Both the position numbers and the translations under genes were made by a program. A model generated the notes under the pieces. It did not search any database, was not told where the DNA came from, and saw only the letters and a list, made by a program, of their open reading frames with translations. DNA of 64,000 nucleotides from a virus. The DNA is taken from positions 61,940 to 125,939 of IMG/VR virus record IMGVR_UViG_3300044922_000175; one strand, 5' to 3'. Shown here one piece after another: positions 49,712-56,696 of this stretch; position 1 is the first letter of the stretch; each line of letters begins with the position of its first letter.

Positions 49712-51904
49712 TCATTTTAAATTTCTAAACGCCTGTTTTGGTCTTTGCATATTACCAGAAGACCCACTTTTTCCAATATGCCTAAAAGCCCCTACTTTTA
49801 ATTTATATAAATCTTTTGACTTATCCAAACTTTCAGGGTTTAGTTCTCTACGTTTTAAATATCCACGGTTTGATTGTTGGATCTTTGCAAAGGCTACAAG
49901 AGCTGTAAATGCCACTAATCTATCCACGTTTAAACCCTCTCTATATGACAACATCTCTTTGATCAGCATAGGATCTGGTATTCTAGATACACCATAGGTA
50001 GTCTTTACAACTGTACCATCTGTTTTATAATCATGATCAATCTCCTCTCTAAGAAATTCAATTGCATAAGAAAGTAAATGAGCTTTAAATAATGTACCCG
50101 TGTTTCTCCAACCATACTGTTGATATACACTAGCATTACTACCAATGTCTTTCAAGAATAAGATCTGATCTTTAGTAACCAGGTATCTCTGTTTTCTCTG
50201 GGATATCATGTACTGGATAAATAGGGATACGTTATTCTCCACTAATGTCCAGGCATTATACCACTCAATAATTAACTCTAGTCTTTCATGTGTTTTCTTG
50301 ATATCATCAAAACGTCCACACCATGCTGCTACAATTCTATCCTGTTCTATATGCGTTTTCTGTTCTCCACCCTCTTCTCTAGATACTTCCACAGGAGCTT
50401 TATAAACAAAAATGGAACAAAGAGAATCAGAGGTAGTAGTCTTACCTTCAGAAACCGGGTCAATACTTGCATAATACATTCCAAATGTAGGATCTTTTTT
50501 AGGTCTTTCCCACACGACCAAGCATCCTGTCTTATCTTCTGTCTTTTTAGAGATAGGAAACTCATTAATAGGTAGTTTATTAGAGTCTTTAACAGCTAAA
50601 TTACTATGCTCATCTCTATATAACTCTAATAATTCATAAGCATATTCTTTATCTTCAATTCTTCGTAATTGTGCAGCAAGTAAATGTACAGAAAATACAG
50701 ACTCTCTTCTAAATGCAAAAGCCTCTTCAATATTTGTAGGCTTCTGGGAGATACGTAACTGGTACTTATCAGGCTCAATCTCTTTCTTCCACTTAATCCT
50801 CTCTTCTTTAATAGCTTCTAAAGCAGTCTCTACTAATGAGTTACCATACTTATCTACATACGGCATCATTGACCACTGTTCAGGAATAAATAATCCGGCT
50901 GTACCAATAGTCCCTTTGCCATCTAATAGATTAGTTTCTACAGCAAAGATATCATTAGCTTCCGGGTTCATGATTAAGTTCTTTAATGGTTCACACTGAT
51001 CAAGGTCACCGACAGATCCTGCTGCAATAAATACCCCGGTAGTTACCATACCAGATTGTAATGCAGGACGTAAGTATTCATATGTCTCCCCCATCTTAGG
51101 AGCAATACCTGCTTCCTCGTGGAAGAAGTACTGACAAGGACCACCCACACCCGCTGTTGCAGATTTCTCAAATGACATACCTTGTATAGTACCTTTTAAT
51201 CCTACCTCAGTTTTCTTATTCCCTTTTCTTACCTCAATCTTTTGCTGCCATAGCATTACTTTATCCGGATTCATTGGTCTGTACCAGGCTGTATGCTCAT
51301 TCAGAAACGATGCATACTCATCTAAGAACTTCCATGTACCCTTATCGTTTATATAATCTTTAAGCGAAGCTCCTATCTTAAGAGTAACACCCTCTTCAAA
51401 CCATAATGAGTTGATTAGTTTACCAGCATGAAAGTATGAAGATGCAATCTGACGTTTCTTAAGAATAGCTACGTGCTTGTAGTATAGTTCAGCCAAGATC
51501 TCATACAGAGCCATGTGGTACTGAGCATCCCGGACTTTAGCAAATCCAAACCTCTTCTCTTCTTTATCATAAATAGGTAAGAAGTTTAACCACATGTAAT
51601 AATCTCTGCTTAAGTACCAAACATTTGTTTGATCCTTATACAGTACACCATTCCTGCATTTCTTTTTCTGGTCATCCCAGTAATATATGTAATCCTTAGA
51701 TTTAAAAGGCGCTACTGTATAGAAGCCTAACTTATTAAAAGTAGTTGCCTCTTTATTAAACAATAGACTAGTCTCATTAAAATTATACTGCCCTGGTTCC
51801 TTAAATAGTGTAAGTAAATAACTCCTCCATTCTTCTTTAGAAGAAAATTCTGTAGTTGTCCAAACACCATTATCCCAAGTAGGAATTTCAATAATACTAT
51901 TCAT
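49712..51904 (-). CDS. terL: terminase large subunit (packaging ATPase-nuclease)
   Basis: 730 residues. The ATPase shows a divergent Walker A/Q-motif region (K-K-R-Q-I-A-S-S-Y-F-H-A-G-K, about 149-162), a Walker B with catalytic Glu pair at 261-266 (F-H-E-E-A-G) and a coupling motif near 290-300 (G-V-F-I-A-A-G-S). The nuclease half begins near 475 with Y-Y-A-S-I-D-P-V (Asp482 as likely metal ligand). This pattern and length match Crassvirales terminases. It starts the packaging-head gene series and overlaps the 77-residue gene before it by 8 nt. No separate small subunit is recognised. Confidence 0.9.
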   Translation of the reverse strand: MNSIIEIPTWDNGVWTTTEFSSKEEWRSYLLTLFKEPGQYNFNETSLLFNKEATTFNKLGFYTVAPFKSKDYIYYWDDQKKKCRNGVLYKDQTNVWYLSRDYYMWLNFLPIYDKEEKRFGFAKVRDAQYHMALYEILAELYYKHVAILKKRQIASSYFHAGKLINSLWFEEGVTLKIGASLKDYINDKGTWKFLDEYASFLNEHTAWYRPMNPDKVMLWQQKIEVRKGNKKTEVGLKGTIQGMSFEKSATAGVGGPCQYFFHEEAGIAPKMGETYEYLRPALQSGMVTTGVFIAAGSVGDLDQCEPLKNLIMNPEANDIFAVETNLLDGKGTIGTAGLFIPEQWSMMPYVDKYGNSLVETALEAIKEERIKWKKEIEPDKYQLRISQKPTNIEEAFAFRRESVFSVHLLAAQLRRIEDKEYAYELLELYRDEHSNLAVKDSNKLPINEFPISKKTEDKTGCLVVWERPKKDPTFGMYYASIDPVSEGKTTTSDSLCSIFVYKAPVEVSREEGGEQKTHIEQDRIVAAWCGRFDDIKKTHERLELIIEWYNAWTLVENNVSLFIQYMISQRKQRYLVTKDQILFLKDIGSNASVYQQYGWRNTGTLFKAHLLSYAIEFLREEIDHDYKTDGTVVKTTYGVSRIPDPMLIKEMLSYREGLNVDRLVAFTALVAFAKIQQSNRGYLKRRELNPESLDKSKDLYKLKVGAFRHIGKSGSSGNMQRPKQAFRNLK

Positions 51905-55002: not shown

Positions 55003-55260
55003 ATGCTGTACTTTTACAAAAAAACTGAACGTGCTATCGTTTGCACAGACAAGATCTTTGGTAAGAAAATCAAAGTAACTCTTGAAAACGGAAATGAAAT
55101 TGAGGTAAATGCTCAAGTGAAATTTGGCATCATTGCAATCGGAGACCAAGAGATTGGTGAGATTGCTCAAGGTACTAAATTGCCTTTTACTCTCACTAAC
55201 CAAAAAGTGAAAGATCAAGAGGGCAATGAAACCAGCCTGTATTGGTGCACACCTGATTAA
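55003..55260 (+). CDS. small beta-rich early protein, unknown
   Basis: 85 residues: M-L-Y-F-Y-K-K-T-E-R-A-I-V-C-T-D-K-I-F-G-K-K-I-K-V-T-L-E-N-G-N-E-I-E-V-N, then K-F-G-I-I-A-I-G-D-Q-E-I-G-E. Even beta pattern, OB- or SH3-like in look, but I cannot name a family. It is the first rightward gene and is followed by about 700 nt without a gene. Codon use is G-richer than the other early genes (many GGT, GAG, ACT). Another open frame on the opposite strand covers it but has no support. Confidence 0.6.
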   Translation: MLYFYKKTERAIVCTDKIFGKKIKVTLENGNEIEVNAQVKFGIIAIGDQEIGEIAQGTKLPFTLTNQKVKDQEGNETSLYWCTPD

Positions 55261-55600
55261 GGTGTGCCCTTACGGGTTACAGGCATAAGCACTTTCTATA
55301 CAAGTTCCTAATTGTCCAGGGATTAAATCATGGTGGCTCCATGAGCTTGTTATATAGTTAAATATAGTTTTGTTTAACTTTTAAAACTATAAACCCCGTA
55401 AATCCTGAGACAATTGTCATAATGTTTAACTTTTTTATGACAAACTGTATAATACAGTAGACATGTGTAAGGGTGTGTGTGAGTGTGACTAAAACACTTC
55501 ACACCAAAACATCATGTGGGACAAAGTGGTAAGAAGTGGGGTCAGATGGGGAAGATAGGACCATTATATGGCTAATTGATTGAATAACATGCTTTAATGC
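55261..55600. other. gene-free region with several hairpins
   Basis: No coding frame is seen. Hairpins: TCATGG/CCATGA at 55328-55344, TATAGTTTT/AAAACTATA at 55363-55391 (9 bp, 11-nt loop), CTGTA/TACAG at 55445-55457, and GTGAGTGT with ACACTTCAC at 55479-55502 (one bulge). A GTGT-rich stretch lies at 55465-55490. The 9-bp hairpin could stop transcription coming from 55260; the rest leads into the structured region at 55608. Confidence 0.45.
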
Positions 55601-55607
55601 ATCATAA

Positions 55608-55878
55608 CCTACTTCACAAGGGTAGGCAAATATGTAGTACACTTTGATAAGCATAGCATAGAAGCTTATTGGATTGGTCTAAGACTAGGATGAAAGACTC
55701 CTATTACTACATATTTGAATGCAGAGTGGAGTAACTAAATCATATAGGCAAGTTCCAAAGCCTTAAGTGCGGAAATGATGGATAGGTTTGTTCCGCTGTA
55801 GTAATACAGTATCTCAAAACAGAGCCATTGAAGTAAGGTAGTTGAAGTCATCCCTTACAAACACCTAAGCATGTGTTT
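55608..55878 (+). ncRNA. candidate structured RNA (or structured origin), at least seven adjacent helices
   Basis: Perfect helices follow each other: CCTAC/GTAGG (55608-55626), AAATATGTAGT/ACTACATATTT closing 55628-55716, inside it ATAAGC/GCTTAT (55647-55669) and TAGGA/TCCTA (55686-55703), then GCGGAA/TTCCGC (55769-55796), CTGTA-GTAA-TACAG with a GNRA-type loop (55796-55809), GTAAGG/CCTTAC (55833-55858) and AAACAC/GTGTTT (55859-55878) directly abutting. The plus strand is favoured by the GTAA tetraloop and G-T pairing. No stop-free coding frame covers it. It lies between two early plus-strand genes. Not tRNA, tmRNA, RNase P or group I by the motifs I checked. Confidence 0.55.
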
Positions 55879-55955
55879 AAACTGCTTCTTATACTCTATG
55901 GTATTATACCTACTAGTATTACCGGATTTTTTAATTGAGCTAAACTTAAATAGAT

Positions 55956-56150
55956 ATGATACAGAATATTAATCAAGAGATAGAGTCTCTTAAGATTGAG
56001 ATTGCGGCACTTAGGGTAATCTATACCCGGATTAATCAATATGCTCTAGAAACTTATGGAAGTAGTATTCTTGAGATTGAGAGTTCTTTAGAGTTTAAAG
56101 AAAGATTACTCTCTTGTATTGATGATGAGGGAGATTGGTTTAATGAATAA
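55956..56150 (+). CDS. small helical early protein
   Basis: 64 residues: M-I-Q-N-I-N-Q-E-I-E-S-L-K-I-E-I-A-A-L-R-V-I-Y, a Leu/Ile coiled coil, ending S-C-I-D-D-E-G-D-W-F-N-E. No family recognised. The next small gene starts 13 nt downstream. A-rich leader without a Shine-Dalgarno, as usual for the host group. Confidence 0.55.
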   Translation: MIQNINQEIESLKIEIAALRVIYTRINQYALETYGSSILEIESSLEFKERLLSCIDDEGDWFNE

Positions 56151-56373: not shown

Positions 56374-56459
56374 GCTACTATGGCGGAATAGGTAGACGCG
56401 CAGGACTTAAAATCCTGTTGTCAGTAATGACAGTGTGGGTTCGATTCCCACTGGTAGTA
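56374..56459 (+). tRNA. tRNA-Leu (anticodon UAA)
   Basis: 86 nt, class II. The acceptor GCTACTA pairs with TGGTAGT (two G-T), the D arm is GCG/CGC, the anticodon stem CAGGA/TCCTG holds loop CTTAAAA with anticodon TAA, the long variable arm is TGTCA/TGACA, and the T arm GTGGG/CCCAC holds TTCGATT. The discriminator is A; CCA is only partly encoded. UUA is a common codon in this AT-rich phage, which explains its value. Confidence 0.93.
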
Positions 56460-56502
56460 CAAACTTAATTCCGTGGGGGAATTGAGTGTTTTGTAAAATG
56501 TA

Positions 56503-56545: not shown

Positions 56546-56673
56546 AGTCAGGTGGCGGAAATTGGTAGACGCATGAATAAGGGTTAATAGTAAAGATAAC
56601 GTAGAGTAACCTTGAAACACCCGTAAAGTTCAGCTCATAAGTTATCATACAGGTTCAAATCCTGTCCTGACTG
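56546..56673 (+). tRNA. tRNA-Leu-like gene with 42-nt excess in the anticodon loop
   Basis: 128 nt. The acceptor AGTCAGG/CCTGACT is perfect, the D arm (GCG/CGC with GGTAGA) and T arm ACAGG/CCTGT with TTCAAAT are canonical and the variable region is long, so class II Leu- or Ser-like. The anticodon stem TGAAT/GTTCA encloses 49 nt instead of 7. Within it AAGG(G)TTA pairs with TAACCTT. An alternative stem TTGAA/TTCAG also exists. The anticodon cannot be read with confidence. It is either an intron-containing tRNA, a degraded tRNA or a tRNA-shaped RNA with another job. Confidence 0.65.
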
Positions 56674-56696
56674 CAAAGGCTACCCAATAGTGGCCC

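Follow-up and report, generated by a model that had tools for sequence, protein, structure and literature searches.

A twister-like RNA with a rebuilt L2 region, probably self-cleaving, and a second, widespread pseudoknot RNA between genes of a crAss-like phage

The window, a stretch of 64,000 nucleotides, is part of a viral record of 125,939 bases. Its large terminase gene (49712-51904, minus strand) matches PHROG 6681, and the encoded protein is 23–26% identical to the terminases of crAss-like phages. The interval considered here, 55608-55878, lies upstream of a tRNA-Leu gene at 56374-56460, which is the sole match in the region to ARAGORN and Rfam; as an earlier note on this DNA had reported, the interval itself contains no recognisable tRNA, tmRNA, RNase P RNA or intron. 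Two neighbouring segments also deserve mention. At about 55260-55360 there is a conserved leader-like segment, ACAAG-UCCUAA..GUCCAGGGAUUAAA-hairpin-CUUGU, common to the viral sequences L049 and L127; its hairpin changes in sequence and stays paired, and the segment is possibly a further structured RNA. At 56548-56674, tRNA-like ends (GUCAGGUGGCGGAAAUUGGUAGACGC ... CAGGUUCAAAUCCUGUCCUGACU) surround a long insert that draws no ARAGORN call, and a shorter version is found in L083.

The earlier note had proposed one new structured RNA for the interval. At least two separate RNA elements are present, of which the larger is recognisably twister-like. Their parts are as follows.

55590-55733, plus strand: the whole predicted twister-like ribozyme variant, defined by RNA model R1 and alignment A1
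55590-55594, plus strand: 5' strand of P1, UGCUU, read from the sequence; pairs with GAGUA at 55729-55733, two of the pairs being G-U
55595-55597, plus strand: U^AA, the predicted scissile step U55595^A55596 and the next A, marked by conservation of TAA
55598-55602, plus strand: 5' strand of P2, UGCAU; pairs with AUGCA at 55719-55723 and covaries
55603-55607, plus strand: linker CAUAA, its CA invariant in the 40-row alignment
55608-55626, plus strand: P4 hairpin, CCUAC-UUCACAAGG-GUAGG, with covarying strands
55615-55617 with 55726-55728, plus strand: T1 pseudoknot, CAC of the P4 loop with GUG; covarying
55627-55717, plus strand: 13-bp stem in the P5 position (55627-55639 with 55705-55717); covaries in relatives
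55719-55728, plus strand: P2' AUGCA and L1 GAGUG, the equivalent of twister GAGGG, with the last G invariant
55743-55861, plus strand: conserved hairpin module between ribozyme and pseudoknot, with hairpins at 55769-55796, 55796-55809 and 55833-55858
55862-55887, plus strand: the E element, a 26-nt H-type pseudoknot; covaries in viral sites
55862-55864 with 55873-55875, plus strand: E stem S1, CAC with GUG
55867-55871 with 55883-55887, plus strand: E stem S2, AAGCA with UGCUU; loop 3 is UUUAAAC

The larger element thus runs P1, U^AA, P2, P4, the 13-bp stem, P2', GAGUG and P1', with T1 as a loop-to-core pseudoknot. The apical part of the long stem is variable and holds two small hairpins. In the minimum-energy fold the P4 loop region pairs instead with the P1'/L1 strand in a nested arrangement; covariation favors the P4 hairpin and T1, and the nested pairing was set aside.

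The helices that the earlier note described in 55608-55878 are real, but the first structured element starts near 55590, upstream of the limits it gave, and a start at 55608 leaves out 18 bases that include the conserved UAA together with the 5' strands of P1 and P2. The long helix is present and has 13 bp rather than 11; no stem of that length appeared in 200 shuffles of the interval. The hairpin closed by GTAA is found as proposed (CTGTA-GTAA-TACAG, 55796-55809), and the last hairpin, AAACAC/GTGTTT at 55859-55878, contains stem 1 of pseudoknot E. A greedy non-crossing search finds seven perfect stems of 5–13 bp in the interval, 47 bp in total, compared with 30.8 ± 6.7 bp in dinucleotide shuffles, of which 3 in 300 reached 47. 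The claim that helices are far denser here than in the flanks does not hold: 55201-55471 has 56 bp and several other nearby windows have 43–49 bp, so that density alone does not single out the locus. Folding of the plus strand is somewhat better than in shuffles (z = −1.98, 5/200), and folding of the minus strand is no better (z = −0.62). This unremarkable folding energy and the equally hairpin-rich flanks are what might be expected of chance hairpins in A+T-rich intergenic DNA. That explanation has, however, a negligible probability and is already refuted by covariation over more than 100 viral sites, which extends to helices not used in finding them.

Close and medium relatives are plentiful in IMG/VR, and BLAST comparison of the region with them reveals conserved islands at 55592-55629, 55716-55743 and 55861-55887 separated by variable sequence. 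Reading of these relatives yielded a single motif, present in three tandem copies in L085: a variable helix, UAA, UGCAY, CAYAA, then a hairpin whose loop is UUCNNAAGG, followed by a long helix, A, RUGCA and GANNN, after which comes the second strand of the first helix. In its order and its conserved letters the motif agrees with the twister consensus printed by Rfam (ccuu-UAA-cgCc-GCC...GGUCCCAAGCCC...UAAA-gGcg-GAGGG-aagg). Direct DNA similarity to named phages was found neither for window positions 55260-55960 nor for one compact variant copy. A pattern search over IMG/VR, in which only 32 nt of the 5' strand were fixed, returned at least 119 stretches and at least 116 distinct sites; for both motifs described here the true numbers of sites exceed those listed.

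A matching 3' half is found in at least 112 of the 116 distinct sites among the matches listed. An automatic test recognised it in 105 of the 116, in which an exact P2' follows a P5-type helix of 6 bp or more, and 101 of those 105 form all three T1 pairs; inspection added seven more (L088, L100, L146, L170, L172, L191 and L200), in which the stem is shorter or slightly interrupted. The U-A preceding ATGC, which the pattern left unconstrained, is kept in 111 of the 116 listed sites, and TAA in 112 of the 115 listed sites that could be parsed. In those 115, P2 takes the forms UGCAC/GUGCA, UGCAU/AUGCA, UGCGU/ACGCA and UGUAC/GUACA; P4 occurs in 23 distinct strand combinations, nearly all fully paired; and T1 is CCC/GGG in 74, CAC/GUG in 20 and CCA/UGG in 18. 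The P4 loop is UUCCCAAGG, UUCACAAGG or UUCCAAAGG in 114 of the 115, a loop that was itself part of the search pattern. Since the parser required pairing of P2, P4 and P5, the counts for those helices are partly circular. An initial candidate, L049, has neither UAA nor T1 and was left out as degenerate.

Alignment A1 comprises 40 diverse rows. Pairing is kept in 93.3% of its cells, against 72.5% after shuffling, and 20 of 25 pairs show changes on both sides; the covariation score is 0.588, compared with 0.193 ± 0.013 for shuffled and 0.05–0.11 for slid alignments. T1, which the parser did not require, is paired in 100% of cells across the 40 rows. P1, which was not a selection criterion, is paired in 72.9% of cells and shows two-sided changes at all six tested pairs. 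The fifth P2 pair is C-G in 20 of the 40 rows and U-A in the other 20. Every helix, T1 and P1 included, has compensatory changes, and the characteristic twister residues are kept: UAA, the UCNNAAG loop, and GANNG with its last G invariant. The covariation that the earlier note had asked for in relatives is strong, no conserved protein frame crosses the element, and its main proposal is borne out: the plus strand of this crAss-like phage encodes a structured RNA here.

Model R1, built from these sites, finds the window site as the only strong match in its own genome (G000:C1:117526-117605, 38.8 bits, model positions 1–75 of 75; the E value of 3.5e-8 is rough, from a short calibration) and matches sites in 22 of 23 related records. 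A terminase of the crAss-like type, related to that of the window, occurs in 19 of 21 tested carrier records. Among the matches listed, the next open reading frame lies on the same strand as the variant at 81 of 83 evaluable sites, only one of which overlaps a same-strand frame, and the preceding frame is on the same strand at 71 of 75. A tRNA gene lies within 3 kb of 31 of 115 listed sites; almost always it follows the site and shares its strand. Bacteroidota-type and sigma-70 promoters are no more frequent than expected by chance. In a collection of bacterial and archaeal genomes the pattern is absent except for two phage-like contigs in metagenome-assembled genomes: a prophage origin was considered for eight pattern matches on genome contigs, of which only L327 (cut by the contig end) and L329 have the expected structure, and these two look like phage contigs that were assigned to metagenome-assembled genomes.

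A replication or recombination site acting as DNA rather than RNA might leave the tandem copies, 194–1220 nt apart, that are seen in some phages. It would not account for an orientation that follows the genes at 81 of the 83 sites, for T1 and the unpaired conserved loops, which are RNA features, or for a copy number of one in some genomes and two or three in others, at varied places. Such an element is very improbable, and nothing was found in favor of the replication origin that the earlier note had also offered.

The segments that follow the ribozyme vary in type. One is common to the second copy of L085, L090 and L150, another to the first copy of L085 and L121, and these payloads (L085 9318-10350, L150, L090, L098) look as if they had been exchanged as cassettes. 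A structured-looking module, AAGCAUAGCAUAAGUGCUGAUGAA...CAGUAUAGUCAGCUAUUGGCUACUAAUAGGUGAAAGGCC, is repeated in several phages (L085 10380-10460; L010 2690-2620, minus strand; also L191). By inspection it is not a hammerhead: the downstream module of L010/L085 has CUGAUGA and GAAA, but no stem II spans the two. A group II match in L085 (E 2.3) was dismissed as noise.

On the evidence of sequence and covariation, 55590-55733 on the plus strand is probably a self-cleaving ribozyme of the twister type whose L2 region has been rebuilt. P1, P2 and P4 would form in the plus-strand transcript, and the P4 loop would reach back to the L1 strand through T1, so that the twister active site surrounds the U55595^A55596 step. 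Attack by the 2'-OH of U55595 on the phosphate that joins it to A55596 would give an upstream product with a 2',3'-cyclic phosphate and a downstream one with a 5'-OH. The place of T2 may be taken by the fifth P2 pair, a single loop pair at most (C55603 with G55621, if it forms) and the long stem in the P5 position, which abuts P4. On one reading the helix stack would stay at six pairs, four plus two in the standard fold and five plus one in the variant.

Several features speak against the ribozyme reading: T2 is not preserved, P2 has five pairs, the Rfam twister models miss the variant, and P1 of the window has only 5 bp, two of them G-U. The loss of T2, the longer P2 and an Rfam score below detection would equally suit a catalytically dead descendant of a twister that persists as a structural leader in the intergenic position where a leader would sit, serving for instance to cap the 5' end against nucleases or to bind a protein. 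Against this, both nucleotides of the predicted cleavage step, U and A, survive in nearly all copies, as does the invariant L1 G, and P1, which spans the cleavage site, still covaries. A dead twister is an unlikely alternative to the active ribozyme.

If the ribozyme is active, its likely role would be to cut a polycistronic message between genes. In a transcript from the control region, the cut would separate the conserved leader (about 55260-55590) from a downstream piece made up of about 290 nt of structured RNA, small open reading frames and then tRNA-Leu, which would begin with a 5'-OH and the compact ribozyme core. We infer cleavage, and with it any rate or effect on the message, from these comparisons.

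The E element lies 133 nt after the ribozyme in the window. Together with the hairpin module it is 94.5% identical over 201 nt to L160, the terminase of which is 96% identical to that of the window's phage. Its consensus is [CG]ACCURAGYAWGU[GC]NNUAAACURCUY. Among the matches listed, the three pairs left free to vary are all formed in 106 of 114 viral sites; the exchanging S1 pair is G-C in 62 and C-G in 45, and S2 occurs as GC/GC, GU/AC, AC/GU and UG/CA. The element is intercistronic: among the matches listed, the preceding frame shares its strand in 156 of 159 cases, and the median distances are 26 nt from the preceding stop and 34 nt to the next start. It is widespread in unrelated phages, including crAss-like phages, cobaviruses and roseobacter phage SIO1 (also L203-L317 and L335-L446), and in cr124_1 it ends about 4 nt before tRNA-Val. 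No Rfam family matched E in the stretches scanned, and it is a separate and very widespread phage RNA.

One might guess that E protects or defines RNA ends. In L009/L085 and L150 it stands 3–4 nt before the next ribozyme, so that after cutting the upstream piece would terminate in E. A more far-reaching proposal, which we regard as speculative and rather doubtful, is that phages of the Crassvirales type use the two elements as an RNA processing kit, in which the twister variant frees the 5' end of an RNA unit and E marks or protects its 3' end. Discrete, stable RNAs would then be released from repeated units such as those of L009/L085 and L150 (twister, payload, E, twister), and in unrelated phages E would serve a similar purpose by itself.

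Standard twisters occur in the same group of phages. Weaker R1 matches coincide in register with Rfam twister-P1 (RF03160) in G013, G016 and G020, and a fourth such coincidence falls in the named phage Bohxovirus. L131 carries a standard twister about 180 nt upstream of its variant copy, with a P1 of the UUGU type in both. Among gut crAss-like phages, standard twister-P1 sites below the Rfam cut-off were noticed at NC_055899.1 39701-39759 (minus), NC_055895.1 15767-15825 (plus), PV686213.1 77759-77839 (plus) and NC_055891.1 17419-17472 (minus), two of the four having perfect P1 stems of 7–9 bp; named genomes with such sites are cr124_1, cr7_1 and, more weakly, cr60_1. Both standard and variant twister-like RNAs are present in crAss-like phages, human-gut genomes with sub-cut-off sites among them, and these phages make a convenient system in which to ask what twisters do in bacteria and phages.

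The variant itself falls outside the Rfam models. At permissive thresholds no Rfam family is found at the element in the window and its relatives; neither the window nor L085 nor the variant copy of L131 reaches the Rfam twister score; and RF03160 is absent from the window's own genome at E ≤ 1. Twister-P5 (RF02684) shares a P5 stem, but is circularly permuted and ends in P5, and in 23 records its model matches none of the variant sites at E ≤ 1. Twister-sister (RF02681) likewise has a multi-stem junction, and its P4 loop is similar (PMC6154101), but it has no loop-loop Watson-Crick pseudoknot (PMC6154101), whereas the variant has a covarying T1 and no Rfam match. Pistol, hatchet and hammerhead are also small self-cleaving RNAs, reported to occur close to phage genes and to one another (PMC10085705); their folds differ, and none matches Rfam in the window. 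A pistol match just under the cut-off (33.9 against 34.5 bits) was seen at 1398-1457 of L104, which also carries the twister variant.

With RF03160 the variant shares the order P1-UAA-P2-P4 (UCCCAAG loop)-P2'-GAGGG-P1', T1 and the U^A step, and its P2 begins with UGCA, as does that of the standard twisters in these phages. Missing permutations of the twister were sought in a 2023 study, which reported no promising candidate (PMC10085705); the variant keeps the type P1 order and is therefore no permutation. Stems P1, P2 and P4 are essential in twisters, which also have pseudoknots T1 and T2 (PMC5408937). The standard P2 has four Watson-Crick pairs, and T2, called a uniform feature of the solved structures, forms through the conserved GC of L2 and L4 (PMC5408937); it has been suggested that extra P2 pairs may disturb the active site (PMC5408937). 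The variant, in contrast, has five covarying P2 pairs, CAYAA (Y = C or U) in L2 in place of GCC, and a single A in place of UAAA; its T2 is lost or reduced to one pair, L2 CA facing L4 GG with at most a C-G. P3, present in 78% of annotated twisters, is lacking, and a long stem occupies the position of P5, which only about 1% possess (PMC6154101). A twister without the usual T2 would mean that a junction can stand in for one half of the double-pseudoknot core. The element is best described as a twister-like variant, probably derived from twister, rather than filed as a standard member of the family.
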